A program made the translations under genes and the position numbers. Of a DNA stretch of 64,000 nt, positions 15,450-64,000 are shown one piece after another. The notes beneath the pieces were generated by a model. The model had not been told where the DNA came from, did no database searches, and worked only from the letters and a program-made list of their open reading frames with translations. Position 1 is the first letter of the stretch. Each line of letters opens with the position of its first letter. The DNA comes from Morinoia aosen (lineage: Eukaryota > Arthropoda > Malacostraca > Amphipoda > Talitridae), in the NCBI GenBank assembly GCA_030386875.1, contig CM059579.1, positions 19,998,484 through 20,062,483 of the forward strand. The letters run 5' to 3'.

Positions 15450-16000
15450 GGTAAATCTGAAGGACTTGACAGTTGTCGATTTTCCACTTTTTGGTGCCTG
15501 AACTTAATTAATTGAATCAAAATAAACAAGTTTTCTTCTATGCACTTTTCGTCTCAAATGAGTATTTCACGATTTATAGCGGTAAGTTTAGTTTCGTCAT
15601 TGATGACAAATGCGCTCGAATAAACAGCTACTCGTCGATTTTAGAATTTTTGTTCCTTGAAACATGGTAATAACATCGAAATAAACAACTTTTCTTCTAT
15701 ACACTTTTTTCGTCAAATGAGTATTTAACGAGGTATAGCGGTAGGTTTGGTTTCGTCTTTCAAGACAGAGCGCTGGAAGCGAGACGCCATTGCAGTATTG
15801 CCATACAACTCGGTCAAAGAATTTCTTTCCGCTTCAAAGACTGGAGTCAGTCGCGGTAAGTCATTTACCGCTATAACTAATAAAATACTCATTTGAGACA
15901 AAAAGTGCATAGAAGAAAACTTGTTTATTTCGATCTAATTAACTATGCTAAGGCATCGAAATTTACAAAATCGACAACTGTCATCTCCTTCAGATTTACC
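15450..16000. mobile_element. MITE C1: foldback DNA element, 551 bp
   Basis: The ends are inverted repeats GGTAAATCTGAAGGA..., about 34 bp with three mismatches. They are flanked by a perfect 8-bp direct repeat CTTCATTC (15442..15449, 16001..16008). The interior arms are also inverted: AACAAGTTTTCTTCTATGCA with CAAATGAGTATTT and ATAGCGGTAA on the left recurs in reverse on the right. The molecule can therefore fold back. An 8-bp duplication is usual for hAT and P elements, but the termini do not match the common CAGGG hAT ends, so the superfamily is left open. It has no coding capacity. Two relatives occur at 44180..49661. Confidence 0.9.
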
Positions 16001-22232: not shown

Positions 22233-22242
22233 CAAGTCACAA

Positions 22243-22604
22243 TTATTATTATTATTATATACGAAAGTTTTAGCCTCCCTTAACCACGACAAAGATGTTC
22301 CAAGAGAGGAAGGAGGAAGGCACCATTTAGCATGGAGTTGAGGGAACGGGGAATCTGTGCACAAAGTACACAGAAACAGTAAGCTAAGAAAGAAGTTCAT
22401 GAAACAAGAAAAAGTTGAAGAAGAAAGTAGTAGGTGCTGAAAAACAGGACAGCAGTGAACCGAAAAAAGATGGTTCGTAACAAAACAAAAACCTATTCTA
22501 TTTCAACAAAAAGGAAGCCTACCTAACCTTTAGCTCAGGCCCTCGCATAGTCCCCCTGGGAGCGCTAATTCCCATAGATACAATACCTGTATCCCCCTGA
22601 GGGG
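22243..22604 (-). repeat. Family D SINE-like copy 4
   Basis: Full-length, from the (TTA)n end to CTGAGGGG. CAAGTCACAA occurs at 22233..22242 and 22609..22618, a target duplication with four extra bases at the head end. This is normal for target-primed reverse transcription. Confidence 0.9.
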
Positions 22605-22944
22605 AGCCCAAGTCACAAAAGCGTCGAATATTTCATTCTTCTTCACATGACAGAAGCTCAAGTTTTTTTGCAGCATACAGTAATTGAATGTCAGTATCAT
22701 AGGAACGAATAGTTAGCGTGCAGACCATTTATAAGCTGATAAGCTGATAAGTAAAATTTTATTCAAACAGATCGTACAAGAGAGTGGACGGTACAGGCTT
22801 CCATAAATAGGTATTGGGAGAGGCGAAGCACGGCTATCAGCTATAAATCTCGATCACTATCAACTAGACTTCGGTGTTATTTTGTTAGCACGAATTTCCG
22901 AGTCGTGTCAGTTATGCAGGAAATTGAGTACCATTGCTATTTCT

Positions 22945-25606: not shown

Positions 25607-25607
25607 G

Positions 25608-26402
25608 CCTCCATTACGGTGCTCTCAGCATCCATTTTAGCATTCTCAGCATCCATCACGGCATACTCAGCACCCATTACGGCATTCTCTGTCTCCATTA
25701 CGGCATTCTCAGCATCCATTACGGCATTCTCTGTCTCCATCACGGCATTCTCAGCATCCATCACGGCATTCTCAGCATCCATCACGGCATTCTCAGCATC
25801 CATCACGGCATTCTCAGCATCCATCACGGCATTCTCAGCATCCATTACGGCATTCTCTGTCTCCATCACGGCATTCTCAGCACCCATTACGGCATTCTCA
25901 GCACCCATTACGGCATTCTCAGCACCCATTACGGCATTCTCAGCATCCATCACAGCATTCTCAGCATCCATTACGGCATTCTCAGCATCCATTACGATGC
26001 TCTCAGCACCCATTACGGCATTCTCAGCACCCATTACGGCATTCTCAGCATCCATTACGGCATTCTCAGCATCCATTACGGCATTCTCAGCATCCATTGC
26101 GGTGCTCTCAGCATCCATTACGGCATTCTCAGCATCAATTACGGCATTCTCAGCCTCCATTACGGCATTTTCAGCATCCATTACTGCATTCCCAGCATCC
26201 ATTACTGCATTCCCAGCATCCATTACTGCATTCCCAGCATCCATTACGGCATTCTCAGCATCCATTACGGCATTCTCAGTATCCACTACCGTTCCCAGCA
26301 TCCATTACGACATTCTCAGCATCCATTACGGTATTCTCTGTATCCATTACGGCATTCTCGGTATCTGTTACGGCGTTTTCGGCATTTTCAGGATCCATTA
26401 TT
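25608..26402. repeat. 21-bp minisatellite, about 38 copies
   Basis: The core unit is CATCCATTACGGCATTCTCA plus G. Variants are CACCCATT, CTGTCTCCAT and CATTCCCAGC. Identical variants cluster (six CATCACGGC units at 25734..25850, three ACTGCATTCCC units at 26180..26240), showing local unit duplication. The unit is a multiple of 3 and contains no stop in several frames. Frames of 295 residues on + (ASITAFS repeats) and 236 on - (ENAVMDA repeats) are therefore open without evidence of translation. Confidence 0.95.
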
Positions 26403-30105: not shown

Positions 30106-30727
30106 TCAGTAGTTTCTAACCCACAATAGTCCTCATTCAAAAGCCGTACAACGCGTACATGGGTCAACATTTCCTTCACGATGTTTGTTGAACTGTCTGA
30201 GAAAATCAGCGTAGCTACAAAAACAATCGTGAGGAAATATATTCTAAATAGAACATTAATTCGACAACAATCCTAACGTACTCTAGGTGTTTTAAGCAAC
30301 TTGAACGCTAACAACCTCAGACACATATTCTAGTCAACCAAATAAAGGATTTATACAGTTATTAGATAAAATATATCTAAAAAACTGACTCACCAAGACT
30401 TTCTCATCAACTAACCAGGGAGCAGCACATAGTACAGCATCAAAGCTTTTTCGGTAATAGATATGAAAATTATTCGCATTGAAGAAAAGCGGTTTTGAAA
30501 CTCCTCGTTTCGGTCCCTATGAGTAGTTGTAATTCGTTTGCGTGAGAGTAACATACCCTGAAATGCAAACCCGAGCAAGCTACTATTCTTGAGCACGTTA
30601 ATTTACAAATTTTAGTTTCATCACAATGAGAAAGTGAAAAAAATAAAAGCTCTATTTTTATTATTCATTAATGTTCCCTTACAAACCTATTTTTAACATC
30701 TTTCCGTGCCGAGTAATTAAGAATCCA
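30106..30727. other. No supported feature
   Basis: AT-rich, with short frames only. Confidence 0.4.
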
Positions 30728-31453
30728 TTATTATTATATAAGAAAGCTTTAGCCTCCCTTAACCACGACAAAGATGTTCTAAGAGAGGAAGGAAGAAGGC
30801 ACCATTTAGTATGGAGTTGAGGAAACGCGGAATCTATGCACAGGGTGCACAGAAACAGGAAGCTAAGAAAGAAGTTCATGAAACAAGAAAAAAGTTGAAG
30901 AAGAAAGTAGTAGGTGCTGAAAAACAGGACAGCAGTGAACTGGAAAAAGATGGTCCGTAACAAAACAAAAACCTATTCTATTTCAACAAAAAGATTATAT
31001 TAGATTAGTCGTTAGTTTTAGCCTCCCTACCCAGCAAAAAATGCGATCCAAAGAGAGGAAGGAGGAAGGCACCATTTAGTATGGAGTTAAGGAAACGCGG
31101 AATCTATGCAGAAAGGCATAGAAACTAAGTTGAGAAAGAAGATCATGAAACAAGACCAAAGTTGAAGAAGAAAGTAGTAGGTGTTGAAGAACAGGACAGC
31201 AGTAAACCGAAAAAGGTGGTCTTTAACATAACAAAAACATTTTATTTCAACAAAAAGAAGGCCTATCTAACTCTCAGCTCGGGCCCTCACATTGTCCCCC
31301 TGGGAGCGCTAGTTCCCATAGATACAATAATTGTATCCCCCTGAGGGGATTTCAACAAAAAGAAAGCCTACCTAACCTATAGCTCGGGCCCTCACATAGT
31401 CCCCCTGGGAGCGCTAATTCCCATAGATACAATACTTGTATCCCCCTGAGGGG
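30728..31453 (-). repeat. Family D SINE-like copy 5, split by copy 6
   Basis: The AT-end part is 30728..30993 and the head part is 31349..31453, ending CTGAGGGG. Removing copy 6 and one target duplication restores a normal D sequence. The copy has its own imperfect target duplication, AATTAAGAATCC before it and AATTAAGCATCC after it. Confidence 0.9.
30994..31348 (-). repeat. Family D SINE-like copy 6, nested in copy 5
   Basis: A full-length copy, from ATTATATTAGATTAG to CTGAGGGG, flanked by a perfect 14-bp direct repeat ATTTCAACAAAAAG (30980..30993 and 31349..31362). The length and variable sequence of the duplication point to L1-like retroposition rather than cut and paste. Confidence 0.92.
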
Positions 31454-32035
31454 AATTAAGCATCCAAAAGAATCATGAAACTAAAGATAACGGCAACATC
31501 TAAGATGCAGCAGCTTAGCGTGCAAGCCTGTATGATATTACGCAACAGAACCTATTGCAACGCAACAGAACGAGACGCATGCACACAATACCGCCATAGT
31601 GGAGCATTTCTAGCAGGAAGACCGGCGGGCTAAGCCTGGGTCCAGTAAGGACGGCGCTCCAGGTGTGCCCTGGTGACGTATATAGCCGGCCGTATCGCAG
31701 ATACTGCTCTGCTACAGCTGCAGGGTTTGGTGGACGCACTATTTCCGCTCAACAACACCGCTGACGCTAAGCGAAGCACATATTTTGGCTCAACTGCATA
31801 TGATACTGTCATGCTTATTACATCTAATAAATAAATGCTTGTAATTGTAGATGACATGAGCAAGACGAGCAACAATTGCCGTTAAAATGTAACTAATAAA
31901 ATTGGTAACATTTGCGTGAATCTAGAGAGGGACAGTCTAGAGCCTATCATCTAGAGAAGTACAAAATAGAGCATAGGATAAATTGAGACACTTGCAGTTT
32001 GTTCTACAACGTATAATATACAAGATGCAGATAAG
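31454..32035. other. No supported feature
   Basis: 31510..31760 is GC-richer, with a GTATATAG word at 31678 and no recognised coding. It might be a retroelement regulatory fragment, but nothing confirms it. Confidence 0.4.
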
Positions 32036-32770: not shown

Positions 32771-33242
32771 TATCCATTGCTGCGGTAACCTATAAACATA
32801 TCCTTTGGAGGCCTGCAAGAAGCGTAAATTTTGCCGCACGTTGTGCAATATTTAGGAAATAAAACACATTTCAACTGCACTAAGATCACACCGGTTCAGG
32901 AGTAACACGGTAGCCGGTTCTATTTACAAGTATTTAGCACTTGACACTCGACGTCAGTTAGCTTTCTGACTCCAGGGCGTTAATGAAATATTATAAATAC
33001 TTAAGGAAACGATTATGCAAATTCACTCTCAGTGTGCGACAGCGTACGGCATACGAAGATGACCCTGTTAGCACATGCACTAGAACAGAACATGTGCTGA
33101 TAAAACAACATGGGCAGTATTCACGAGCAAAAATTCGCTTGAATGCGTGTATGGGGACTGAATTTCAGTGATTTTTATTATGGGTATGAGCGTTCAGTAG
33201 CCAAGTCGACTGAGGGAATTTTTTGCATCAGTAGCACTGCTG
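32771..33242. other. No supported feature
   Basis: No motif or repeat recognised. Confidence 0.4.
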
Positions 33243-33529
33243 TGCTCTCCGTGGTACAGTGGTTAAGGGATTGGGCTCGTATGTTGGAGTCGCCGGTTCG
33301 TATCCCGGCGCTGGCGCGGAGATTTTCCCCGTTGGGTATAAGGGAAAGCTCAAGCACAATACCCCAGTAACCCCACTCAACCCAGGTGTCGGAAATGGGT
33401 ACCGGCTTTACGGGGGAACCGTCAAGGTGTCCTATATATAGGGTTAGTTATAAGACATTTGAAAAACCAATGCTAAGATCATATGTATCAGGCTTGATTG
33501 GAAATAAAGCATCCCAAAGATGCCGATGT
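33243..33529 (+). repeat. tRNA-derived SINE, copy S1
   Basis: The head looks like a tRNA gene with an A box (TGGTACAGTGG, about 33253) and a B box (GGTTCGTATCC, 33295..33305). A non-tRNA body follows (CCCGTTGGGTATAAGGGAAA, CAGGTGTCGGAAATGGGTAC). The tail is GATTGGAAATAAAGCATC and GATGCCGATG. Two more copies, inside elements A and B, have the same boundaries. The long conserved non-tRNA body excludes a functional tRNA gene. Confidence 0.9.
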
Positions 33530-33746
33530 GTGAACCTGTGACCGCGCACATTGTTTGAAATCCGGAGACAGAACTGCGAAGTATGACTGCAACACAATGA
33601 GGAAGACAAGACCGGAAGGAGGCACACACAGTCGAGCGGAGCGGACTAGAACGACTCGCAGGCCGTTGGCGTTAAAATGGAATTATTGTCACGATGTGTA
33701 GCAAGGTTCCGTCGTCGCGTACGTGGAATACTTGAAAGTGAAAGAG
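33530..33746. other. Spacer between SINE S1 and the satellite
   Basis: Nothing recognised. Confidence 0.4.
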
Positions 33747-35949
33747 TTCAGGAAAGGAGAGTAACAGCAGTGTGCGATGGAAGAAGAGTTCGGAAATGGG
33801 AGTAACAGCAGAGTGCGATGGAAGAAGAGTTCGGAAAGGAGAGTCACAGCAGTGTGCGATGGAAGAAGAGTTCGGAAATGGGAGTAACAGCAGAGTGCGA
33901 TGGAAGAAGAGTTCGGAAAGGAGAGTCACAGCAGTGTGCGATGGAAGAAGAGTTCGGAAATGGGAGTAACAGCAGTGTGCGATGGAAGAAGAGTTCGGAA
34001 ATGGGAGTAACAGCAGAGTGCGATGGAAGAAGAGTTCGGAAAGGAGAGTCACAGCAGTGTGCGATGGAAGAAGAGTTCGGAAATGGGAGTAACAGCAGTG
34101 TGCGATGGAAGAAGAGTTCGGAAATGGGAGTAACAGCAGAGTGCGATGGAAGAAGAGTTCGGAAAGGAGAGTAACAGCAGTGTGCGATGGAAGAAGAGTT
34201 CGGAAATGGGAGTAACAGCAGAGTGCGATGGAAGAAGAGTTCGGAAAGGAGAGTCACAGCAGTGTGCGATGGAAGAAGAGTTCGGAAATGGGAGTAACAG
34301 CAGAGTGCGATGGAAGAAGAGTTCGGAAAGGAGAGTCACAGCAGTGTGCGATGGAAGAAGAGTTCGGAAATGGGAGTAACAGCAGAGTGCGATGGAAGAA
34401 GAGTTCGGAAAGGAGAGTCACAGCAGTGTGCGATGGAAGAAGAGTTCGGAAATGGGAGTAACAGCAGTGTGCGATGGAAGAAGAGTTCGGAAATGGGAGT
34501 AACAGCAGAGTGCGATGGAAGAAGAGTTCGGAAAGGGGAGCAACAGCAGTGTGCGATGGAAGAATAGTTCGGAAAGGAGAGTCACAGCAATGTGCGATGG
34601 AAGAAGAGTTCGGAAAGGGGAGTAACAGCAGTGTGCGATGGAAGAAGAGTTCGGAAAGGAGAGTAACAGCAGTGTGCGATGGAAGAAGAGTTCGGAAAGG
34701 AGAGTCACAGCAGTGTGCGATGGAAGAAGAGTTCGGAAAGGAGAGTCACAGCCGTGTGCGATGGAAGAAGAGTTCGGAAAGGGGAGTAACAGCAGTGAAC
34801 GATGGAAGAATAGTTCGGAAAGGAGAGTAACAGCAGTGTGCGATGGAAGAAGAGTTCGGAAAGGAGAGTCACAGCGGTGTGCGATGGAAGAAGAGTTCGG
34901 AAAGGGGAGTAACAGCAGTGAACGATGGAAGAATAGTTCGGAAAGGAGAGTAACAGCAGTGTGCGATGGAAGAAGAGTTCGGAAAGGAGAGTAACAGCAG
35001 TGTGCGATGGAAGAAGAGTTCGGAAAGGAGAGTAACAGCAGTGTGCGATGGAAGAATAGTTCGGAAAGGGGAGTAACAGCAGTGTGCGATGGAAGAAGAG
35101 TTCGGAAAGGAGAGTAACAGCAGTGTGCTATGGAAGAATAGTTCGGAAAGGGGAGTAACAGCAGTGTGCGATGGAAGAATAGTTGGGAAATGGGAGTAAC
35201 AGCAGAGTGCGATGGAAGAAGAGTTCGGAAAGAGGAGCAACAGCAGTGTGCGATGGAAGAAGAGTTCGGAAAGGAGAGTAACAGCAGTGTGCGATGGAAG
35301 AAGAGTTCAGAAAGGAGAGTAACAGCAGTGTGCGATGGAAGAAGATGAGTTCAGAAAGGAGAGTAACAGCAGTGTGCGATGGAAGAAGATGAGTTCAGAA
35401 AGGAGAGTAACAGCAGTGTGCGATGGAAGAAGATGAGTTCAGAAAGGAGAGTAACAGCAGTGTGCGATGGAAGAAGATGAGTTCAGAAAGGAGAGTAACA
35501 GCAGTGTGCGATTGAAGAAGAGTTCAGAAAGGAGAGTAACAGCAGTGTGCGATGGAAGAAGATGAGTTCAGAAAGGAGAGTAACAGCAGTGTGCGATGGA
35601 AGAAGATGAGTTCAGAAAGGAGAGTAACAGCAGTGAGCGATGGAAGAAGAGTTCAGAAAGGAGAGTAACAGCAGAGTGTGCGATGGAAGAAGATGAGTTC
35701 AGAAAGGAGAGTAACAGCAGTGTGCGATGGAAGAAGATGAGTTCAGAAAGGAGAGTAACAGCAGTGTGCGATGGAAGAAGATGAGTTCAGAAAGGAGAGT
35801 AACAGCAGTGTGCGATGGAAGAAGATGAGTTCAGAAAGGAGAGTAACAGCAGTGTGCGATGGAAGAAGATGAGTTCAGAAAGGAGAGTAACAGCAGTGTG
35901 CGATGGAAGAAGATGAGTTCAGAAAGGAGAGTAACAGCAATGTGCGATG
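33747..35949. repeat. 41/44-bp satellite with higher-order structure, about 52 units
   Basis: The core is ACAGCAGTGTGCGATGGAAG plus AAGAGTTCGGAAAG. Three zones follow each other. 33760..34550 alternates two 41-bp variants (AAATGGGAGTAAC...CAGAGTG and AAAGGAGAGTCAC...CAGTGTG) in 82-bp dimers and some 123-bp trimers. 34550..35330 is mostly uniform 41-bp units, with a sub-variant GAATAGTTCGG. 35335..35949 is mostly a 44-bp unit with an added GAT (GAAGATGAGTTCAG). The sequential variants indicate successive amplification waves. The many 60 to 137 residue frames are by-products. Confidence 0.97.
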
Positions 35950-37875
35950 GACCTGAAAACAAGAACGCCATGCAAACAAGAGGATGGAATGGGAATGGAG
36001 CCCTCGCGAAGTGATTATTATGCGTGCGACGATAACACCGTCTGGGGAGACATTAAATTAAAAAAAAAACGACCCAGTGCAACACGAGTTTGCACGGCTC
36101 ATCAAAATTAACGAAACGAAGTACAGCCTCTACCCTGACGATGGAGGACAAATAATATGCATCTACTAAGTGGTACACAAATCAAAGAACAAAAAACTCG
36201 ATTTACGACTTCCATAAATAAAAACAAACATCTGTTCTCGGAAAGAGCCGTAAAGCATAATAGCCATCTTTTCATTAAGGTAGCTCAAATAGCTCGCTCC
36301 TGTGTGTTACCATGGCAACCAATAAACAAGCGCTTTGTTTCAGCGGTCTGGAACGTTTTAATTATCCAGCTCATTAATCAGATTCGCACTCACAGCTGTT
36401 TTTAATTAAAAGAGTAATTTGTCTATATTTGTTTTCTGCTCGTACGAAAGAAGAAAGCACGTACGTAGCAATGCAGTCATAAAATTCACGTTTTCTCTGT
36501 TATGAAGATTAAACTGAAACTCTCAGGCGAGAAAACGTGTTAAGGCCAAACAAACACGTGTCTACATAATCCATCCAGGTAGCCATTTCATACGTTGTTT
36601 TGTCTCACCGTGTGCGATGTGTGAAACAACGTCAGCTTCAAGTGTGCAGCCAGTTCACTTCCTGCCGTGTATGGAAGTCAATGGTATCTTAACTGCAGTT
36701 TAACTGAACTATAATTCATGTCAACACTTGATTGGTCCGTCTCTGTTCTATAAACAGTGAGGAGTGAGAGATATTTCTTTTTGATGTCAGGATGCAGCGA
36801 TGATGGACTCATTAATTGCAGAACAAAGCGGAGAAAGAGATCCTTGTTTTGTCCATCCACCGGAAGCTGCCGGAAGCTGGCGTTCAAAACTTAACTCAAT
36901 GGCAAAGCATCAGAAGTGTGTTGTAGACCAGCACGGCTTCTGACGCTAAGTTCTAAAAAAGCACGAAAATGCGATGACCAGAGTTTTGTGTAGCCACGTG
37001 AATAAGTGAAATTTGGTGCACAACGTTCGTAACTCCCTATATATATATATGAACAATACAATAATTTCCGATCTTGCAGTCGTCTTAGGTTTTATATGAA
37101 ATTTGGCGGTTGCCTGTCGACCCGGCTGTCAATTCTCAAAGGGTCTCTGGGCAAACTATACGAGTACAATACAATGACTCTTATCCAAAAATCAACATCT
37201 CCCCCATGTTTTTCGCAACTAAAAAGGAAGCCTGGCAGTGTTCAAGCTTCAAGTTTAAGCCGCCGCGACGCAATAGAGCAGATTTTTTGGTAACGAAACT
37301 TCATATTTCAAACTGGCCACACATGATTTGAAAACAAAGAATAAGAAATATTTCCTTTGCTGATACACAGAGGACTTTTCATCGTTTTCGAAGTTCTATA
37401 TAAACGTTGAAAACTTCCATAATTTTCAGCTCGGGTAAGCAACTCGTCCTTTAGGGTAGAAAATTCTCCATAAGTGTGTGCGATACGCCCCACACCGTGA
37501 ATTTCACAGGAGTGTCCTCACATGTTCTATTATCTGAAGAATAAAAACTCACGAGTAACCACATCAGCTCCATCTTTGACGGACACGAACTGGTTACATG
37601 CTGGTCAATTTCCTGAGCTAAAACATAGTATTGCTTCGCATGAATTAATTACTATTGCATTCTCATACTCGCAGGAATGAGCTGTCAGTGAAGCACTAAA
37701 TTGATTCAAAATCGATTTGTACTAAAGGTTTTGAAGTTCAGTCAGTACCCGATATGCACTCATACAATACAAAAACCTTTGATGGAAAGTTTGCTTCTAT
37801 AGATGAACAATACTAACCTACTGCGAAATTAAATACGAATACATTAGTCACCGATGAAGGATAAATATAAGTGAT
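35950..37875. other. No supported feature
   Basis: AT-rich to mixed. All frames are 82 residues or fewer and show no known domain. A short (TA)n tract lies at about 37038..37050. Confidence 0.45.
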
Positions 37876-38240
37876 TACATTAGATTATATGTTAGTTTAA
37901 GCCTCCCCAATCGGTACGAAAAAAGAGCGTATTGAAGAAAGGAAGGAGGAAGGCACCATTTAGTATGGAGAAAAGGGAATGCGGAATCTACACAGAAGGG
38001 GCATAGAAACATTAAGTTGAGAAAGAAGTTCATGAAACAAGATAAAAGTTGAAGAAAAAATTATTAGGAGCTGAAAAACAGGACAACAGCGAACCGAAAA
38101 AATGTGGTCCTTAACATAACAAAAGCATTTTATTTCAACAAAAAGAAGGCCTACCTAACTGTCAGCTCGAACCCTCACACATTTTTCCCCTGGGAGTGTT
38201 AATTCTCACAGATACTATATAGTTGTGGCATCCTGAGGGG
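37876..38240 (-). repeat. Family D SINE-like copy 9
   Basis: Full-length, from TACATTAGATTATATG to TCCTGAGGGG. Its minus-strand head contains GAGGGTTCGAGCTGACAG, which resembles a pol III B box (GGTTCRANNCC). Possible imperfect target duplication: ATAAATATAAGTGAT before, ATAATATAAATGAT after. Confidence 0.88.
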
Positions 38241-38898
38241 ATAATATAAATGATAATACAAAGTGCAGCAGTAAATTTGGGTCAAACAAAATTTCCCACC
38301 AACAATGAAAGGTAACTGTTGGATAATTGATAGGTTGTGTTTACACACAAATCAGTACACAAGGTGGCAATATAGCAAACATAGAAATACTGTGCCCCAA
38401 AAAATGCTGTTTACAATAAATCCGTCGCACTAAAGTGATGCAAATTATGAGGGCCAGCTGTTACTTGGAACACCTATTTCGTATCATTTTGAAAACCACC
38501 ACGTTTGGTTAGCAATCTTACATTTAAAGCTTGCTAATTACAGCTTGCTTTGAATTCGTTTCGTGGCCTGAAGGAGAGGACATGTATCAGAGTAACGAGC
38601 TGCGCAGAGCACCTGCAACAGACACGATGCAGCATGAACTGCTGGTCGCAGTTCTGAATTACCTTGACAAATGACACAAGGAAAACTAGCTGTCAGAGGA
38701 TCGCTTTCAATGGTGATTAAAAAAATCAGTAACTGAGAGATTGCTCGTGAAAATACTGTTTCTTGTTGAATATTATTAATACAAAAAATTAGCAGGAACA
38801 ATTTTTTATGTCTCATTTTAAATTTTACCTCGGAACCTGAAAGACTGTTCATGAAAATACAGTCTCTAGTTAAATTCTACTTATAAAAAATTCAGAGG
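38241..38898. other. No supported feature
   Basis: AT-rich. A minus-strand frame of 104 residues (38538..38852) has no recognised motif. Confidence 0.4.
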
Positions 38899-38912
38899 AA
38901 AAATCTATCAAT

Positions 38913-39274
38913 TATTATTATTATTATATAAGAAAGTTTTAGCCTCCCTTAACCACGACAAAGATGTTCCCAGAGAGGAAAAAGGAAGGCACCATTTAGT
39001 ATGGAGTTGAGGGAACGTGGAATCTATGCACAAGGTGCACAGAAACAGTAAGCTAGGAAAGAAGTTCATGAAACAAGAAAAAAGTTGAAGAAGAAAGTAG
39101 TAGGTGCTGAAAAACAGGACAGCAGTGAACCGAAAAAAGATGGTCCGTAACAAAACAAAAACCTATTTTATTACAACAAAAAGGAAGCCTACCTAACCTT
39201 TAGCTCGGGCCCACACATGGTTCCCCTGGGAGCGCCAATTCCCATAGATACAATAGTTGTATCCCCCTGAGGGG
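38913..39274 (-). repeat. Family D SINE-like copy 10
   Basis: Full-length, with (TTA)n at one end and CTGAGGGG at the other, between perfect 14-bp direct repeats AAAAATCTATCAAT (38899..38912 and 39275..39288). Confidence 0.93.
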
Positions 39275-39288
39275 AAAAATCTATCAAT

Positions 39289-44171: not shown

Positions 44172-44200
44172 TTATCTTCGGTAAATCTGAAGGACATGTC

Positions 44201-44748
44201 GGTAAACCTGAAGGAGATGACAGTTGTCGATTTTCCACTTTTTGGTGCCTGAACCTAATTAATTGAATCAAAATAAAAAAAGTTTTCTTCTATTCTTTTT
44301 TCGTCTCAAATGAGTATTTTACGATTTATAGCGGTAAGTTTAGTTTCGTCATTGATGACGAATGCGCTCGAATAAACAGCTACTCATTGATTTTCGAATT
44401 TTTGTTGCTTGAAACATGGTAATAATACCGAAATAAACAACTTTAATTCTATACACTTTTTTCGTCAAATGAGTATTTAACGAGGTATAGCGGTAGGTTT
44501 GGTTTCGTCTTTCAAGACAGAGCGCTGAAAGCGAGACGCCATTGCAGTATTGCCATACAACTCGATCAAAGAATTTCTTTCCGCTTCAAAGACTGGAGTT
44601 GCGGTAAGTCATTTACCGCTATAACTAATAAAATACTCATTTGAGACAAAAAGTGCATAGAAGAAAACTTGTTTATTTCGATCTAATTAACTATGCTAAG
44701 GCATCGAAATTTACAAAATCGACAACTGTCATCTCCTTCAGATTTACC
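44201..44748. mobile_element. MITE C2, inserted in the end of C3
   Basis: A 548-bp family C copy, GGTAAACCTGAAGGA to TCCTTCAGATTTACC, in the same orientation as C1 and closely similar to it. The flanking 8-mers GACATGTC (44193..44200) and GATATGTC (44749..44756) differ at one base. The target lies within C3's own terminal repeat. Confidence 0.9.
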
Positions 44749-45129
44749 GATATGTCAGTTATCGATTTTGTAAATTTCGATGCCTTAGCATAGTTTATTA
44801 GATCGAAATAAACAAGTTTTCTTCTATGCACTTTCCGTCTCAAATGAGTATTTTATAAGTTATAGGGTAATTCATCAAATATCGAACAGAAACCACGTGT
44901 GTCTAGAAATAACCTTCATAAATTGGTAACTTTTGCTCTGAATAACTGTTGCGGGCCTCAAGATTATTCTTGAACAGTTGCTTTCTTGCTCTGTGATGTC
45001 GCTTTAAAGACAACGTAGATTATTGGTATTTATTTATTGTTCTAGAAATCGAATTCTTGTACAACATAATTTCATCAATATCGAACATGAATCGAACAAG
45101 AATTTTGATCCGAACAGGATGGTTTGTCA

Positions 45130-45380
45130 ATTAGTTCTCCTCGTATGGAACTTTTGTTAGACTATTAGCATGCCACGTATGGTTTGTCTATTAGTACGCA
45201 TCGTATATTTTGTCCATTAATATGCCTCGTATGGTCTATCTATTTGTACACCTCTGATAGTTTGTCTACTAGTACACCTCGTATAGTTTGTCAATTATTA
45301 TGCCTCGTATGGCTTTTCTATTTGTAAACCTCTGATGGTTTGTCAATTAGTACTCCTCGTATGGAACTTTTGTTTTAGGA
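45130..45380. repeat. Degenerate 26-bp minisatellite in element A
   Basis: Units like TAGTTTGTCTACTAGTACAC plus CTCGTA recur about ten times, alternating CTCGTATGG and CTCTGATAG joints. The same array is at 51925..52215 in element B in reverse, so it was present in the common parent. Confidence 0.88.
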
Positions 45381-45394
45381 CGTCCTATATTACG

Positions 45395-45480
45395 AAACTT
45401 TTTAAAACCCAATATGTTGACATGTATCTCATGTGGCCACTTAGAAAATAAACGTTTTTCTTTCATTCCTTTTTTTCTTT
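45395..45480 (+). repeat. Family F tail inside element A
   Basis: TTTTTAAAACCCAATATG, then TAGAAAATAAACG, then a T/C-rich tract, matching the 3' half of the copies at 11701 and 20517. The copy in B lies at about 51815..51900 on the minus strand. Confidence 0.55.
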
Positions 45481-45503
45481 GGTGCACTGGATTTTCTTGG
45501 AAG

Positions 45504-45780
45504 TGCTCGCGGTGGCACAGCGGTTAAGGGATCGGACTTGTATCTTGGAGCCGCGGGTTCGTATCCCGGCGCTGGCGCTGCGATTTTCCCCGTTGGGTAT
45601 AAGGGAAAGCTCAAGCACAATACCCCACTCGACCCAGGTGTCGGAAATGGGTACTGGCTTACGGGGGAACCGTCATGGTGTCCTATACATAGTTTTAGTT
45701 ATAAGACATTTGAAAAACCAATGCTGAAGATCATTTATATCAGGCTTGATTGGAAATAAAGCATCCCAAAGATGCCGATG
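45504..45780 (+). repeat. tRNA-derived SINE, copy S2, inside element A
   Basis: Same structure as S1: A box TGGCACAGCGG, B box GGTTCGTATCC, body and the GATGCCGATG end, then (TTTG)n. It lies at the equivalent place in element B, so it has been carried along as a passenger. Confidence 0.92.
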
Positions 45781-45829
45781 TTTGTTTTGTTTGTTTGTTT
45801 AAAATAACTGTCTCATTACTTATTTTCAG

Positions 45830-46210
45830 GAAGCATTTGAATGGAGAGTTATCAAAATTTGAATATGATGTCGATGTTTCATTTGCAGTGCTTGTTGAAC
45901 CATCATTGTGATCATCAACCTGTGTGACCTTTTTTGGAGTAGAGTGTAGAGCACTCGTCAATGAATTATTATTGATGCTTGCATCAATTTTCTTGGCAAG
46001 GGATTGATCATCAGTAAATGTTGCCAGACGAATCATTGATGATCTTGAGAGCCTTGGAACACCAGCAGCTGATTGGTCGCCATCTTCAACTATTCAATGT
46101 TATTATCAAGCGTTAATACAATATTTTAAGGAAATGACACAGGCGTTCAATAGATCGATTCAGTTATTTAATAGAATTAAGAATCGAAAAGCCTTGTTCG
46201 AGGCATAAAT
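45830..46210. pseudogene. Unidentified fragment shared by A and B
   Basis: On + the tail reads IDDLESLGTPAADW, then CYYQALIQYF, then RIKNRKALFEA and a stop (to about 46208). On - a different frame (45740..46036) runs SLAKKIDASINNNSLTSAL. Both are only partly kept in B, where small indels shift the frame. It may be the remains of a captured or transposon-encoded protein. I do not recognise it. Confidence 0.3.
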
Positions 46211-46471
46211 TCATGATTTTTAAGGAATTTTGATTCGAACACCTTTGTTCAGTATTTAATACTGACATGAAATAGGAACTGAATGTCGAACATGGAATAA
46301 TTATCAAGTTTTTAGCGGGAAAGAAAAAAAATACAGCAACAGAACATCATATGACAACACTACTCTCTAGTTATGACGGGAGGTTGACGGTGACCCAACA
46401 ACAATTAAACCGTAGCAATTTTCCCGAGGTGCGTAAGATTTTTCAAGTGAAAAAATACGACCAATTTCTAA

Positions 46472-46815
46472 AGCGGCCCATAGACGATCAATTTTATTGT
46501 CAATATAATTGACAATGATGAATATTGACAATTATATTGATCGTCTGTGGGCTTGATTGACGACCGTCAATTAATTGACTCAATGTATTGACGCAATAAA
46601 ATCGGTTTGAGCCCGTAGACGATAAATTTCATTGTCAATATAATTGTCAATGATGAACATTGACAATGATATTGATCATGTGTGGGCTTGATTGACGACC
46701 GTCAATTAATTGACTCAATGTATTGACGAAATCAAATCATTTTGATTTTTTATTGATGGTCCGTCAATATATTGAAACGTCCATTTGGACGCGTCAATAT
46801 ATTGCGTCAATATTT
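46472..46815. repeat. Left subterminal repeat cluster of the Harbinger element
   Basis: Two similar blocks (46472..46608 and 46609..46742) each run from a GCCC(A/G)TAGACGAT start to GTGTATTGACG-like words. A further stretch of TCAATATATTG repeats follows. The right end at 48765..49042 holds the same words in reverse. Confidence 0.85.
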
Positions 46816-47900
46816 CATTCTGAGCTCCGGAAGTCGTAGTGTATGCACCTGAAAATACTTCGAATTTTATTTATGTGTACTCGCAGATCTGTTACTTCAT
46901 GCATGCTGGAGTGCGCTGCTTCGAATATATGGTACTTTTTATGTCTTTTTATGAAAAATATAATTTGAATTTAGTGAACTAATTTTATTTATAATTATTA
47001 GCCTATTTATTAGCATTATGTAGGAAAGTAAAAACTGGGACTTTTTCCTTGGAATCGGCGACTTTCGTACGGCTAAATCTGGTACTCTTAACAAAATACG
47101 TAGGGTAAGTTATGGCAACCAGGGCTGAGGGTGCTTACAAGCTAAAAGACTGAAAGCGAGAAAGCAAGCGAGAGAGAAAGATGTCAGCAGGATCTATCAC
47201 TCACAAAAAACACGCAGTTTGCTCCTAAATGTCATGGAGAGATGTCTATAACAGAAACGAGCAGTACAAGCATGTGTTTGTAACGTTGATTTCATTCCTT
47301 CTTCATCCCATTGCTTTGAAACATGTAATCTGTCCCTGTGCTTTGGATTTTTTGAGTTCGAAATGCGAGGTACAGCATTAACTTCGAGTATCAGAAGTTC
47401 AGTGTATGCTGGAGGAATTGAGCAGTACGCCAACCTTATCGACATCTCACCGCGCACCACCAGGCAGCCAGCTTCTATCTGCAACTCTCAAGCGTGAAAC
47501 AATCTTCGAGTCGGTTTCTTGCTTCAGTCAATCCTCAGTCTTTCTCGCTCGCCCTCTTGCTTGCTTGCAGTGTATGCACTCTCATAGGAATCCATGTTAA
47601 TCAATTCAAGCTCGCTAGCTTTCTCTCATCAAATCGTTTGGTGTGCAGGCATCCTGACACTTTAGATATTTAATAGCTAGATCTATATGTTTTCGCTTTA
47701 ACCTTGCTGTAAAGTTTGGATTGTAGATATTAGCTAAAAAAATCTAGATGGTTTTTTAGCTTGCTTGATATTATCTTGCGGGAATTACACCTAAGCGATG
47801 CATATGATATATTACTCAAAATTAATATTATGCATTCGCTGTAATGTTTACTACTTCATTCTCATAAAATTTGCTGATTTGCTTAACCAAATTATTTGAA
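46816..47900. other. Interior of the Harbinger element, unidentified
   Basis: No recognised coding. 47130..47590 is richer in GC and has open frames on both strands (95 residues on -, 64 on +) without known motifs. It shares the word TCATTCTGAGCTCCGGAAGT with 27703. Confidence 0.4.
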
Positions 47901-47939
47901 TAGCGAACTTACCACTTTCAGAACACGTTATGTTCAGAT

Positions 47940-48360
47940 TATGTAGCAGACCAAGACGGCTACTGCCACGTTTTTGGGCCACCATAGTGCAACTTTTAAT
48001 TGTGATCATATGGTTGTTATGTTAAAGCACATCTCCAACTGCAAACCTATTGATGATGTTCAAATGCATCTAACAAAATGCACAAACATTATCAAAAATG
48101 TATTGTATCCTCATTTCGAAAAACTGACCAATGATAATGGCAACAATAAGTTCAGTTTATTATTGGACGAAAGTAATGATATTTAAATCATGAAACTACT
48201 TGGGGTATCAGTTATATGTATACTACAGCGATATATCTGAAACGGGAAATCAACTTAGGAATTGCATAATTAGTAAAATGTGATGCAGATAGAATTGTGA
48301 CAGCCTTAAAACAATTGTTGATAAGTATCTGAGCATTGATAATTGCATTGCTAAAGGGAC
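47940..48360 (+). pseudogene. hAT-type transposase fragment
   Basis: The frame at 47974..48186 contains KCTNIIKNVLYPHFEKL and ends NNKFSLLLDESNDI. This is the region around the first catalytic aspartate of ZBED/hAT transposases (F.LL.DES.DI). After a frameshift the downstream sequence resembles the next hAT blocks: GVSV.Y, then CDADRIVTALKQLL, then KGTDN near 48350, where GIGTDNA is expected. No BED finger and no dimerisation domain are present. It stops exactly where the Harbinger transposase remnant begins on the other strand. Confidence 0.7.
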
Positions 48361-48766
48361 TGACAATCGCCAGTCGCCAGATATCTCAGCGTGAGCGACA
48401 GCCGTTGGCTAGGTGATATCGGTTCTCGCATGTTTGTTGATTCTTTCTGTATATATGGAGTGAAGAGATGGAAAAGTTGATCAAATGATGTAGTGTCCAT
48501 TCGAAGATAGTTCTTGAAATCTTCTGGCTCATTTGAACGTAGTTCTTTCAGCAATGCGTCGATTCCGAATATTCTGCCACGTTCCCTGATCCAGTTTTGG
48601 CCCATGTCTTGCATTTACGCGGGGATTTTCTTGAAGTTGAAATTGCCAACGCGAGCGCTACAATGGTAATTACTTCGTCGTTTATCACGTACGGCGTCCG
48701 CAGAGCAAATGACTGGTTTTCATCAATTACATGGATGCAAAGATTGACGCCGCAAGTGGGCAACAA
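48351..48766 (-). pseudogene. PIF/Harbinger transposase N-terminal remnant
   Basis: Minus strand. The first frame (from 48766) reads INDEVITIVALALAISTSRK. A second frame (from about 48605) reads WIRERGRIFGIDALLKELRS, then FKNYLRMDTTSFDQLFHLF, then LSLTLRYLATGD and a stop at 48351. This is the conserved pre-DDE part of HARBI1-like nucleases (W...R...G....LL.EL, then F.NFLRM....F..L, then RL..TLR.LATG). One frameshift near 48600 splits it, and the catalytic domain that should follow is gone. Confidence 0.8.
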
Positions 48767-49669
48767 AAAATCTCATCAATATATTGAGTCAATGATATTG
48801 ATAATTAAATTGATCGTCTATGGGCTCAAACTGATTTTATTGCGTCAATACATTGAGTCAATTAATTGACGGTCGTCAATCAAGCCCACAGACGATCAAT
48901 ATAATTGTCAATATTCATTATTGTCAATTATATTGACAATAAAATTGATCGTCTGTGGGCCGCTTTAGTGGGCAAAAAAAAAATCTCGTCAATATATTGA
49001 GTCAATAATATTGACAATTAAATTGATCGTCTATGGGCCGCTTAAGGGTCGTACAGAAAATGCGTTCGCAACAGCTGGTAGCAGTTTGCAGCTCACAGAA
49101 ATGAGTTTTTATCACTAAAATAGGAGTTTTAGATGTAAGATCACCGGCACTGAGCAAGTTTGGATGCTTACTAAATTTATTACGCGCATATTTCCAAAGT
49201 TGTTCGATAATCAGTTCAGTTCGATATTTGATGAATTACCCTAGCGGTAAATGACTTACCGCAACTCCAGTGTTTGAAGCGGCAAGTTATTCAAGGAGCA
49301 GGTCGGACAGCAACACTGCAATGCGCACTCGCTTCCAGCGGGATCGTCATCAAAGACGAAACCAAACCTACTGCTATACCTCGTTAATACACATTTGACG
49401 AAAAAAGTGTATGGAAGAAAAGTAGTTCATTTCGATGTTATTACCATGATTCAAGCAACAAAAATTCGAAAGTCGATGAGTAGCTGCTTATTCGAGCGCA
49501 TTCGTCATCAAAGACGAAACTAAACTTACCGCTATAAATCGTAAAATACTCATTTGAGACGGAAAGTGCATAGAAGAAAACTTGTTTATTTTGATTCAAT
49601 TAATTAGGTTCAGGCACCAAAAAGTGGAAAATCGACAACTGACATATCCTTCAGATTTACCTTATCTTC

Positions 49670-50602: not shown

Positions 50603-51506
50603 TAGGGTAATTCATCAAATATCGAACTGAACTGATTATCGAACAACTTTGGAAATATGCGCGTAATAAATTTAGTAAGCATCCAAACTTGCTCAGTGCC
50701 AGTGATCTTACATCTAAAACTCCTATTTTAGTGATAAAAACTCATTTCTGAGAGCTGCAAACTGCTACCAGCGGTTGCGAACGCATTTTCTGTACGACCC
50801 TTACAAATTGGTCGAATTTTTTCACTCGAAAAATCTTACGCACCTCGGGAAAATTGCGACGGTTTAATTGTTGTTGGGTCACCGTCAACCTCCCGTCATA
50901 ACTAGAGAGTAGTGTTGTCATATGATGTTCTGCTGCTGTATTTTTTTCTTTTCCGCCAAAAACTTGATAATTATTCCATGTTCGACATTCAGTTCCTTTT
51001 TCATGTCAGTATTTAATACTGAACAAAGGTGTTCGAATCAAAATTCCTTAAAAATCATGAATTTATGCCTCGAATAAGGCTTTTCGATTCTTAATTCTTT
51101 TAAATAACTGAATCGATCTATTGGACGCCTGTTTTATTTCATTAAAATATTGTATTAACGCTTGATAATAACATTGAATAGTTGAAGATGGGAATTCTGG
51201 TGAGGGGCTACCAATCAGCTGCTGGTGTTCCAAGGCCCTCAAGATCATCAATGATTCGTCTGGCTACATTTACTGATGATCAATCCCTTGCCAAGAAAAT
51301 TGATGCAAGCATCAATAATAATTCATTGACGAGTGCTTTACACTCTACTCCAAAAAAGGTCACACAGGTTGATGATCACAATGATGGTTCAACAAACACT
51401 GCAAATGAAACATCGACATCATATTCAAATTTTGATAACTCTCCATTCAAATGCATCTTGAAAATAAGTAATGAGACAGTTATTTCAAACAAACAAACAA
51501 AACAAA

Positions 51507-51793
51507 CATCGGCATCTTTGGGATGCTTTATTTCCAATCAAGCCTGATACAAATGATCTTAAGCATTGGTTTTTCAAATGTCTTATAACTAACACTATAT
51601 ATAGGACACCATGACGGTTCCTCCGTAAAGCCGGTACCCATTTCCGACACCTGGGTCGAGTGGGGTATTGTGCTTGTGGGGTATTGTGGGTACCTTATAC
51701 CCAACGGGGAAAATCGCAGCGCCAGCGCCGGGATACGAACCCGCGACTCCAACATACAAGTCCGATCCCTTAACCGCTGTGCCACCGCGAGCA
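51507..51793 (-). repeat. tRNA-derived SINE, copy S3, inside element B
   Basis: Complement of S2, with B box GGATACGAACC (+ strand view) near 51730 and A box near 51776. A partial duplication of TGTGGGGTATTGTG (51670..51690) lengthens the body compared with S1 and S2. Confidence 0.92.
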
Positions 51794-51924
51794 TTTCCAA
51801 GAAAATCCAGTGCACCAAAGAAAAAAAAAATGAAAGAAAAACGTTTATTTTCCAAGTGGCCACATGAGATACATGTCAACATATTGGGTTTTAAAAAGTT
51901 TCTTAATATAGGACATCCTAAAAC

Positions 51925-52215
51925 AAAAGTTCCATGCGAGGAGTACTAATTGACAAACCATCAGAGGTGTACAAATAGAAAAGCCATATGAGGCATAATA
52001 ATTGACAAACTATACGAGGTGTACTAATAGAAAAACTATCAGAGGCGTACAAATAGATAGACCATACGAGGCATATTAATGGACAAAATATACGAGGCGT
52101 ACTAATAGACAAACTATACGTGGCGTGCTAATAGCTATTAGCACGCCACGTATAGTTTGTCTATTAGTACGCCTCGTCTAACAAATGTTCCATACGAGGA
52201 GAACTAATTGACAAA
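51925..52215. repeat. 26-bp minisatellite in element B
   Basis: Reverse complement of the array at 45130..45380, with units such as GACAAACTATACGAGGCGTA. It is interrupted by the long palindrome at 52093..52176. Confidence 0.88.
52093..52176. repeat. 84-bp perfect palindrome
   Basis: Two 42-bp arms with no spacer, centred between 52134 and 52135 (CTAATAG|CTATTAG). The arms begin CGAGGCGTACTAATAGACAA. It covers more than one unit of the 26-bp array. It is absent from element A, so it formed after the copies separated. Confidence 0.95.
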
Positions 52216-52474
52216 CTATCCTGTTCGAATCAAAATTCTTGTTCGATTCATGTTCGATATTGATGAAATTATGTTATTAAAAATTCGATTTTTAGAACAA
52301 TAAATCAATTCCAACAATCTACGTTGTCTTTAAAGCGACATCACAGAACAAGAAAGCAACTGTTCAAGAATAATCTTGAGGCCCGCAACAGTTATTCAGA
52401 GCAAAAGTTACCGATTTATGAAGGTTGTTTCTAGACACACGAGGTTTCTGTTCGATATTTGATGAATTACCCTA

Positions 52475-55637: not shown

Positions 55638-56104
55638 CTATTTATATCAATCATAATTTGCTTAAAAAGTTATTTTTCAGAAACTTTGCATTTGCGCTTC
55701 CTTTTACAACACTTTCTAAACTTTAAGTATAAGTATTACAAAATAATACAAAGTAATGTATTCCATTGACAATTTTATTAAAATATATTCAAGAATGAAA
55801 CAGAGGTAAGAATGATTCTCAGCGTGCTTATAGGGAGCATTTTTCAACGGCTTCATGTTCCATCTTACTGCTCTTCGTCAAAAAGACGTTTTCTTCCATA
55901 CACGCGCCCCATGCTATGAATACCTGCAAAATTTCAAGCTTCGAGCCTCGATTCTTACGGAGCTCAAGGCGGAAAATACAGACATCACCGCATGATTTAG
56001 TCGTGTTACACAAGGAGTAGAAAATACTTATCAGTTGAGCAAGGAACTCCTCCCTCCAAACGAACTTTTGCTTTTCTACCCGATAAACCTACCTGATTGA
56101 TCGA
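55638..56104. other. No supported feature
   Basis: AT-rich, nothing recognised. Confidence 0.4.
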
Positions 56105-56470
56105 AATTCAGTTTCAGCTTCCATAACCACAATAAATGTGTTCAAAGAGAGGGAGGATGAAGACACCATTTAGTATAGAGCTAGGGGCATACGGAATTTA
56201 TGAACAAGGTGTTCCCACACAAGATTCCTGCTCATAGAAACAGTGAGTTGATAAGGATGGATATCAAATAAGATAAAAGTTGAAAAAGAAAGTTAAAGGG
56301 GTTGAAAAAGCGGACAGCAGAGAACCGAAAAAGGATGGTCATTTCACAAAGCAAAAATCTATTCTATTCCAACAAAAAGGTCTACTTAACTGTCAGTTCG
56401 GGACCTCATATTTTACCCATGGAGGTCCTAATTCCCATAGTTACACTAATTGTATTACTTTGAAGCGGAA
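56105..56470 (-). repeat. Family D SINE-like copy 11
   Basis: Shows CAGCTTCCATAACCACAATAAATGTG, ACACCATTTAGTATAGAG, GGACAGCAGAGAACCG, CCAACAAAAAGG and a worn ACTTTGAAGCGG head. It has the longer middle (GGTGTTCCCACACAAGATTCCTGCTC). Counting split copy 5 as two pieces gives the 12 D segments mentioned elsewhere. Confidence 0.82.
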
Positions 56471-57924
56471 AAAGGTAAATAAAAACAATCAAAAAGGTTT
56501 CACGACAAACAACCATATAAACACTCATTTGGAATTACTTTCTTGGTACCTATGAGTTCGCTGACTCGTCATGGTGAGGTAACTTGCAGTGTAGTGAGGA
56601 ATAAAACACCTCGCTTTAGATCCCCACGTTCAGACGCTAAGGAAGGATTTTGCTTCGAGGCGTCGTGCCCCTCCAGCAATGGAAGTTCCATTAAACTGAA
56701 GAGCTCGCTGCCAGGGTGACGAGCTGCTTCTGGTTTTCGCACGGCTAGACTAATTAAAACTCTGGCAAGCTCCTCATTTCACGTGGCGCACACCAAACAA
56801 ACTTCAAAATTGCATTTTTTAATTTCCCTCACTTCCCCTCCCCTCATCCCGCCCTCGTCCATGCGGTCGATCTCTGGAAGCCCTCTCCAAACAGCCTGAA
56901 GGATATTCTAAGGGGAAACAAATGTTCATCAAGTGTGAACGTACACGTCTTTATAGGTCATAAATCTGACGCCAGTTAGGATAGATTTATAAACCCGCTT
57001 CCTGTTCGATTTTTCTCCGTATTTCAGGCATTGTACTAATGAACACTGAACGTTTACGAGCTCTGGTTACGCTACTGCTCAAAACACATTTACTGATTCG
57101 TTGAATTCATTTAAGGAAGTTTATATTTTTTGAGACCCTCATACTTCAGATGTCACTCGTACAGTCAAGATTCTATCACACAATACAAAAATCTTCAAAT
57201 GAACAGAAGATGACGAGGCCAGCGCAGACACGAGCAACACCACTTGCATCACACTTCACGCTCCAAGCACGCACGCCAATACTGAGCCATTCTTCCCAGA
57301 GAATGGCTAAGACTCCAGGGCAGGCTAAGACTCCAGTGTGTCGGCCGGGCGATCAGATATTTATCAGCAAAGGTTCGATCCCTTACGGGGCGGGTCAAGT
57401 ATTCATCGTGGGGACCTGGATATGGCCTATAGATGATAGATCAACGCACATACGCAGTGGCAACACAATCACAGGCGCAAAAAAACGAGATTTCTTTTCG
57501 CAAGGAGAGACTCTTTTCCCCAAAAAATAGCTACTCATCTGATGTTAGAGAAAACTTGTTTGAGTGTCCAATTTAACGCGGGTCACAGATACGGAGTAGC
57601 ATCTTCCTCCAGGTTTTGCTCCCTCCGTGATGTGAGAACAAAATTTTGTCGAGGACGAAACTTTTCCTTCTAGCAACAGCTGAGATCTTCATCATCACTC
57701 AAACTCTCTCCGACAGAGCCTACCGAATTAATCTCGGAGGCGAATTTCTCGGAAGAATTTGAACCATAAACATGACGAAACTAATTGTAAGCTTTTCTCA
57801 TGACTCGCTACGGTTGGAGGAAAGGGGCCCAAGAAACATGATATTAGAATGGTTGGGAGCTGCAGCTCTCCTCTGTCGTAAATTAGGATCTTCCACGAAA
57901 CCTGAACCTGATACAATTTTTTAA
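56471..57924. other. No supported feature
   Basis: Mixed composition. The 126-residue + strand frame at 57150..57530 has no known domain. A B-box-like GGTTCGATCCC at 57374 lacks the rest of a tRNA. Confidence 0.4.
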
Positions 57925-62605: not shown

Positions 62606-63039
62606 GAAGCAAACCGTACGCGGTAACCTCCTATTGAAAAGAATACGCAAACAAGGCTGTCAGAGTTTCATACATTCATATATTAGAAACATAACCATAT
62701 TATTTGAATGAGTTATGGAACATTAGTTGGGAGATAACTTGCTTCGGGATATTCAAATTATACCGTCAATTTGCGTGGCACGAGTACACTGTTTTTATCT
62801 AACACAATCGAGTCGTGTACATCGGCTTTAAAAAACTCATCCAAAGCTGGCATCGTTTAATGATTATAAAAATTACACAAGGTAATACGGATATTTCTCA
62901 AACAAAAATACACCCCGCTGCTGAGAGTGACTTCCTTTATGCTGTTGGAGCTCCTCTTACCTCATAAGAAACGGGAGGCTATTTTACGCCCACACTTCGC
63001 GATGGATGACCATTGTAGGATCCCGCTTATTAATTGTTA
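62606..63039. other. No supported feature
   Basis: AT-rich spacer before the terminal array. Confidence 0.4.
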
Positions 63040-63852
63040 TGCAGCTCCTGGATCCCGCTTGTGATGCAACTCCTGGATCCCGCATGTGATGCAACTCCTG
63101 GATTAAGCATGTGATGCAACTCCTGCATCCCGCTTGTGATACAACTCCTGCATCCCGCTTGTGATGCAACTCCTGGATCCCGCTTGTGATGCAACTCCTG
63201 CATCTCGCTTGTGATGCAACTCCTGCATCCTGCTTGTGATGCAACTCCTGCATCCCGCTTGTGATGCAACTCCTGCATCCCGCTTGTGATGCAACTCCTG
63301 CATCCCGCTTGTGATGCAACTCCTGCATCCTGCTTGTGATGCAATTCCTGCATCCCGCTTGTGATGCAACTCCTGCATCTCGCTTGTGATGCAACTCCTG
63401 CATCCCGCTTGTGATGCAACTCCTGCATCCTGCTTGTGATGCAACTCCTGCATCCCGCTTGTGATGCAACTCCTGCATCCCGCTTGTGATGTAACTCCTG
63501 GATCCCGCATGTGATGCAACTCCTGGATCAAGCATGTGATGCAACTCCTGCATCCCGCTTGTGATGCAACTCCTGCATCCCGCTTGTGATGCAACTCTTG
63601 CATCCCGCTTGTGATGCAACTCCTGGATCCCGCATGTGATGCAACTCCTGCATCCCGCTTGTGATGCAACTCCTGCATCTCGCTTGTGATGCAACTCCTG
63701 CATCCCGCTTGTGATGCAACTCCTGCATCCCGCTTGTGATGCAACTCCTGCATCCCGCTTGTAATGCAACTCCTGCATCCCGCATGTGATGCAACTCCTG
63801 GATCAAGCATGTGATGCAACTCCTGCATCCCGCTTGTGATACAACTCCTGGA
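63040..63852. repeat. 25-bp minisatellite, about 32 copies
   Basis: The unit is GTGATGCAACTCCTGCATCC plus CGCTT. Variants are GGATCC, CATGTG and GATCAAGCATG; a GGATCC CGCATG / GGATCAAGCATG doublet recurs at about 63065..63110, 63500..63540 and 63790..63810. No stop occurs on the minus strand in any frame, so three long overlapping frames (up to 264 residues) appear. Because 25 is not a multiple of 3, each frame cycles through all three unit readings (MQELHHKRD, GVASQAGC, RSCITSG). Confidence 0.96.
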
Positions 63853-64000
63853 TTTCACTTCATCCAACTCCTGGTTCCCGATCCAACTACCTACCAGATA
63901 ATCTCGATTTCAACACTCCAGTAGACGATCCCGATTCAACGCTCCACTAAAAAATCAATCCGGATGCAACAACACTCTACCAGATAATGAATCCCGGTCC
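63853..64000. repeat. Diverged edge of the 25-bp array
   Basis: CATCCAACTCCTGG, GATCCAACTACCTACCAGATAAT, GATTCAACGCTCCAC and GGATGCAACAACACTCTACCAGATAAT are progressively degraded relatives of the unit. The array may continue beyond the window. Confidence 0.55.

Follow-up and report, generated by a model that had tools for sequence, protein, structure and literature searches.

How many separate insertions built a nest of transposons, and which of the pieces inside it arrived on their own? The question is raised by positions 44172-49669 of a 64,000-nucleotide stretch of the genome of the amphipod Morinoia aosen (GenBank GCA_030386875.1, contig CM059579.1, 19,998,484 to 20,062,483; hereafter the window, on contig C24 in our numbering), which a first-pass annotation had described as a five-part nested stack with exact target duplications at four levels. 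Searching the assembled genome (1.99 Gb, 29 contigs), we found that the nesting and its target duplications are real and beyond chance. The stack almost certainly records four successive cut-and-paste insertions of non-autonomous DNA transposons, two of which, elements A and H, were composite beforehand. The count of five separate events does not stand: four insertions were local, and the two innermost pieces, a stretch resembling a short interspersed element (SINE) in A and a hAT-like piece in H, are cargo. The two other elements, C3 and C2, are miniature inverted-repeat transposable elements (MITEs) of one family, C. All named boundaries are legible directly in the sequence; two uninterrupted reference copies close the list:

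44172-44179: left 8-bp target duplication of C3, TTATCTTC
44180-49661, minus strand: C3, an older C MITE of about 550 bp, split by C2 and A; its reconstructed 547 bp align end to end with C1 and C2
44180-44200, 44757-44864 and 49244-49661, minus strand: C3's own sequence
44193-44200: left 8-bp duplication of element C2, GACATGTC, one base off the right copy
44201-44748, plus strand: C2, a younger C MITE within the terminal repeat of C3
44749-44756: right 8-bp duplication of element C2, GATATGTC
44863-44864: left TA duplication of A
44865-49241, minus strand (opposite to B): A, a non-autonomous element with a TA target and ends GGGTAATTCATC, split by H
45503-45784, plus strand: tRNA-SINE-like stretch in A, family cargo
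46469-46471: left TAA duplication of H
46472-49042: H, a PIF/Harbinger-like non-autonomous element within A; full-length relatives at loci L042-L044 are flanked by TAA or TTA
47947-48366, plus strand: hAT-transposase-like relic in H, family cargo, labelled by eye
48351-48614, minus strand: Harbinger-transposase-like N-terminal fragment in H, named by eye
49043-49045: right TAA duplication of H
49242-49243: right TA duplication of A
49662-49669: right 8-bp target duplication of C3, TTATCTTC
15450-16000, plus strand: C1, the uninterrupted reference copy of the C MITE, with CTTCATTC on either side
50605-52472, plus strand: B, the uninterrupted reference copy of family A, with TA on either side

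Hosts, duplications, cargo and order

Does each interrupted host read as one element once its inserts are removed? Excising every insert and retaining one target duplication, as the first-pass annotation had proposed, restores both hosts and bears out its view that they are continuous across their inserts. Reduced to 547 bp and reversed, C3 can be aligned from one end to the other with C1 (551 bp; 494 of 546 compared positions identical) and with element C2 (548 bp; 491 of 546), whereas identity is about 65% when it is aligned unreversed; C1 and element C2 agree with each other at 526 of 547 positions. Element A minus H aligns over its full length with B and with 29 further copies fetched from the genome, differing from them by 3.1 to 4.2%, and H is missing from B and from the 29. 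Uninterrupted relatives exist in C1, B and L042-L044. The host flank to the left of C3 (43500-44179), searched in the genome, matches itself only, so that no paralogous empty site is readable for C3.

As had been claimed, C2 lies inside the terminal repeat of C3, A sits at a TA within C3, and four junction pairs carry duplications; three of these are exact (C3, 8 of 8; A, TA; H, TAA), and that of element C2 agrees at 7 of 8 positions. The same footprints recur across the families. Both flanks could be read in 22 full-length C copies, element C2 included; in 21 of them the flanks agree at 7 or all 8 positions, and the remaining one, L046, has 4 matching positions in register. Of these copies, 8 of the 22 come from loci L045-L051, chosen for adjoining C fragments. 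TA stands on both sides in all 33 A-family loci read, and identical TAA or TTA flanks three of four H copies (window, L042 and L043), with L044 matching at 2 of 3 bases.

The two innermost pieces have a different standing. With B as query, we scored the best 40 of 4,776 first-look candidates, B included: the SINE interval is covered in all 40, of which 37 match all 1868 bases of B and 3 are partial or split, and each of 30 rows of a 31-row alignment contributes 284-285 compared bases against A within that interval. With the interior of H as query, the hAT-like interval is likewise covered in every one of the best 40 of 2,663 first-look candidates, the window copy included. Since both pieces are present in all scored relatives, they are not separate local insertions, and four local events remain. 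The SINE and H do lie inside A, with H at a TAA, and the hAT-like stretch does lie in H, as first described; among the scored copies the SINE-like stretch, like the hAT-like relic, is family cargo, inside A and H before these inserted, though A or H relatives lacking one or the other may exist beyond the best 40.

To judge by eye from its head boxes, 45503-45784 may be a tRNA-headed SINE; scanned with ARAGORN, the window gave no tRNA, an Rfam scan gave no match, and a flanking duplication looked for around the stretch was not discernible. It is 89% identical to a second copy in the window at 33242-33532, which, queried as 33243-33532, has 39 other places in the genome at 92-96% identity among the matches listed. 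Because the SINE is family cargo, the locus places it before the expansion of the scored A-family copies and is silent on its activity beyond that. The 30 aligned A-family copies other than A lie 0.5-1.6% from their majority sequence, and the pairs formed by A ends fall mainly into two size classes, about 1,646 and about 1,823 bp (44 pairs among 100 end sites listed). Six same-strand SINE copies with near-equal scores lie within about 1.3 Mb (G000:C20:5177206-6467045) and are perhaps borne by a larger local repeat. B also contains a 92-bp near-perfect palindrome (window 52089-52180); copies about 95-96% like B have a shorter self-match of about 46 bp.

In what order did the four arrive? By nesting, C3 preceded both C2 and A, and A preceded H; the age of element C2 relative to A or H does not follow from it. 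Terminal branches from FastTree, which are upper bounds dependent on the relatives fetched, fit this order: 0.028 for C3, 0.030 for A, 0.013 for element C2 and 0.0043 for H, the near-equality of the first two meaning that branches do not separate C3 from A. Element C2 is 96-98% identical to 39 other best places listed in the genome. The order of activity announced for at least three superfamilies plus a SINE thus holds as this partial order over three duplication classes (8 bp, TA and TAA/TTA), without a place for the SINE and without the superfamily names.

In our reading an older C MITE, C3, first entered host DNA, duplicating 8 bp; later a younger one, C2, entered its terminal repeat, again with 8 bp, and an A-family element entered a TA in C3. 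Last, the Harbinger-like H entered a TAA in A. On this account A already bore its SINE-like stretch and H its hAT-like and Harbinger-like transposase relics, each family having amplified with its cargo, and transposases made elsewhere presumably mobilised each element in trans. The locus is a base-level record of four insertions at one place, and it carries a caution for reading others: an inner piece may be counted as an event of its own only when it is absent from sister copies.

Recurrence and neighbourhood of A and C

Is the nest peculiar to this window? A second stack of like design, an old C holding a younger C and an A, lies at L020 (G000:C8:48613650-48615468, plus flanks), where the duplication of the younger C, ATAAGTAT, is exact over all 8 bp. 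The A copies of L020 and of the window occupy the same TA of C, in different C copies; transposition of C3 and A as one composite is rejected because 72 of 547 positions distinguish the host C of L020 from C3. Altogether, five of 34 A copies read (33 loci plus the A of the window) are inside a C: those of the window, L020, L023, L034 and L040. L034 is inserted at a similar ACCGCTATA motif in C. L040, considered as a further same-TA insertion, was discarded on its flanks, which show another TA about 6 bp away, so that only the window and L020 share the site. At L045, L047 and L049, loci chosen for adjoining C fragments, a C copy has inserted into another and left an exact 8-bp duplication.

Such coincidences invite the explanation that A targets C or a C motif, the nest then reflecting target choice and not chance in a repeat-rich stretch. 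We think this unlikely, as the neighbourhoods of A are themselves rich in C. Among 29 A loci with measured flanks (3 kb each, 87 kb in total), C covers 10.7% of the flanks, against 0.67% of 20 random 2.5-kb stretches (50 kb from 11 contigs of known length; 1 of 20 hit); the flanks of 7 C copies are covered to 5.8%. Direct insertion into a C at 3 of the 29 (L020, L023 and L034) is about what the local C density predicts, which makes special targeting unnecessary. A C is present at 14 of 29 A loci and 1 of 20 random stretches (Fisher P = 0.0013), or, without L018 and with a 2.5-kb flank, at 13 of 28 and 1 of 20 (P = 0.0029). Of 40 forward A-end sites on contig C1, 4 have an exact C site at a distance of at most 5 kb (0.35 expected, P = 0.0008); the corresponding figure in a smaller set, confined to the portion of contigs C1 and C2 that was listed, is 3 of 12, with 0.11 expected.

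Other shared repeats also crowd these flanks: leaving out L018, 11.3% of the A flanks match other A flanks, as against 0.3% when the smaller random set is compared within itself, with cross-matches of 4.3% (random set to A flanks) and 5.0% (A flanks to random set). With L018 included the share of A flanks rises to 18.0%, an inflated value because L015 (G000:C3:59286689-59288547) and L018 (C3:60269794-60271652), whose flanks are 99.7% alike over 2,870 bp, are one duplicated segment. G+C content is lower in the A flanks (0.368 versus 0.401). In successive 250-bp bins away from A, C density runs 10.5, 17.4, 18.1, 10.2, 4.4 and 3.5%, which hints, from few elements, at a clustering scale of about 1 kb. 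Most of the A-in-C nesting would thus be due to regional clustering, and the recurrence of such nests would follow from it.

A bolder scenario, which we hold to be doubtful, is that A carries a complete SINE with its tRNA head and promoter boxes, which cut-and-paste transposition has taken to perhaps well over a thousand sites, and that A and C favour the same neighbourhoods of about 1 kb, A reusing one TA in C and the families building self-reinforcing nests. If A does distribute SINEs whose promoters work, the number of SINE copies would in part be a product of DNA-transposon bursts.

Elsewhere in the window, another dispersed repeat is present in three copies about 94% alike (22240-22605, 30727-30993 and 38909-39275), with further, mostly 66-85% alike copies at 7909-8286, 10621-10995, 31011-31472, 37873-38254 and 56104-56473. 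Shifted self-matches outline four tandem-repeat arrays (1787-2474, 25603-26400, 33742-35951 and 63034-63880).

Family identities and the weight of the evidence

What are these families? Counted across the genome with at most 2 mismatches, there are 6,016 C sites, 3,377 A ends and 3,744 H ends, the reversed-pattern control giving 0 for each. Family C has the features of a MITE: about 550 bp, inverted repeats of about 136 bp at 85%, a fixed 8-bp duplication and many copies. Its assignment to hAT, which the duplication length fits, was rejected on its ends, which are GGTAAATC and not the CA-type ends of hAT elements. The genome also holds 101 matches to the Merlin-type transposase (PF12762), several in open frames of more than 350 amino acids (aa), and Merlin elements may be young here. 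One such place beside a C site on contig C2, entertained as the mover of C, turned out, over the portion read, to be an independent element whose ends differ, lying in a C cluster.

Tc1/mariner-type MITEs have a TA target duplication, and the TA duplication of family A (33 of 33 loci) suggests that it is Tc1/mariner-like. Two A-end pairs share an identical span of 23,820 bp (G000:C1:21969488-21993307 and 22545938-22569757), perhaps through segmental duplication; two others stand 7.0-7.3 kb apart (G000:C1:36953570-36960872 and 37310258-37317272), with C sites about 3 kb beyond both, and are perhaps one duplicated segment.

Non-autonomous PIF/Harbinger elements have a TAA or TTA target and inverted ends. 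In H, 40 of the outer 42 bases of the terminal inverted repeats are identical, and its flanks show the TWA duplication of that group (identical in the window, L042 and L043; 2 of 3 in L044). A 140-aa frame of H, to which the fragment at 48351-48614 belongs, is open in L042, open over the translated part in L043 and L044, frameshifted in the window, and encoded at 150 scored places in the genome; by eye we take it to resemble the start of a Harbinger transposase, with no Pfam match, and a PDB search with it returned two matches at E 1.6, taken as chance. The piece at 47947-48366 we presume to be hAT from its motif KFSLLLDESNDI, seen by eye; no hAT profile appeared in the Pfam scans. Those scans gave no meaningful match in 10 open frames of the nest and B, in 10 open frames elsewhere in the window, or in fragments from fetched H copies; the six A/B open frames among those scanned, two of which run across an A-H junction, were likewise empty. 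H ends also occur about 196-197 bp apart (G000:C2:16565363-16565559, C2:61323296-61323492 and C4:471891-472086), perhaps a short MITE form of the H family. Superfamily names beyond duplication type are unproven, those of A, C and the hAT piece resting on duplication length or on resemblance seen by eye; in a literature searched by topic, these families may be new.

Several observations count against four serial transpositions. The two duplications of element C2 differ by one base (GACATGTC versus GATATGTC). The terminal branches of C3 and A are about equal, and that of A is an upper bound because its relatives were chosen by likeness to B. The eight junctions are known from assembled sequence alone. 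A transposase moving A or C was not found among the places inspected: none of 5 of the 101 Merlin-type places (4 with 1.5-kb flanks, 1 in part) has C ends, and an A-end pair 7.3 kb apart, examined as an autonomous A, was set aside when the 2.2 kb read looked by eye like coding sequence of a long interspersed element (LINE).

Could the SINE and the hAT-like piece nevertheless have been separate local insertions, making five or six independent events? Both pieces do lie inside A and H at their stated places; the 40-of-40 coverage of each interval, together with the 284-285 bases compared in each of the 30 rows, refutes it for the copies scored, and we consider it highly improbable overall. That the stack is an assembly artefact, or a product of recombination between repeats, would suit a place where every part is a high-copy repeat, the usual site of misassembly, and is scarcely credible given that each junction pair bears its family's typical target duplication, that the interrupted hosts run on across every insert, that the host flank matches itself only, and that the contigs are chromosome-sized (58 to 121 Mb for 11 contigs). 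Four successive insertions, with A and H composite beforehand, remain our reading of the locus.

Relation to known systems

How unusual is such a structure? Its kind is well known, the nesting from the method named transpositions in transpositions (TinT) and the SINE inside a MITE from MER6, and the locus is a clean but ordinary repeat pile-up in a large genome. H is like non-autonomous PIF/Harbinger elements in its TAA/TTA target, its inverted ends and a Harbinger-like fragment recognised by eye; it differs in adding a hAT-like relic, and neither a full transposase nor a profile match was found in it. Family A shares its TA duplication with Tc1/mariner-type MITEs and differs in that its ends begin GGGTAATTCATC and no transposase is tied to it.

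The multimeric arrays of SaTar, described as non-nested and microsatellite-associated (PMC5907723), resemble this locus as small non-autonomous DNA elements amassing locally, whereas the elements here are nested. TinT chronology orders element activity from element-in-element insertions across thousands of nested retroposons (PMC3014933), whereas this one locus yields a partial order only. The closest parallel is MER6/MER6A, a Tc1/mariner-type MITE carrying part of a SINE, which like family A is a non-autonomous DNA transposon amplified with a fixed SINE cargo (PMC6887750). In both, the carried SINE is a retroelement copied by a DNA transposon. The two differ in that the MER6 cargo is described there as SINE body and tail without the tRNA-related head, whereas the stretch in family A has a tRNA-like head by eye, and in that MER6 appears from that account to be no longer active (PMC6887750), whereas 30 A-family copies lie 0.5-1.6% from their majority sequence.

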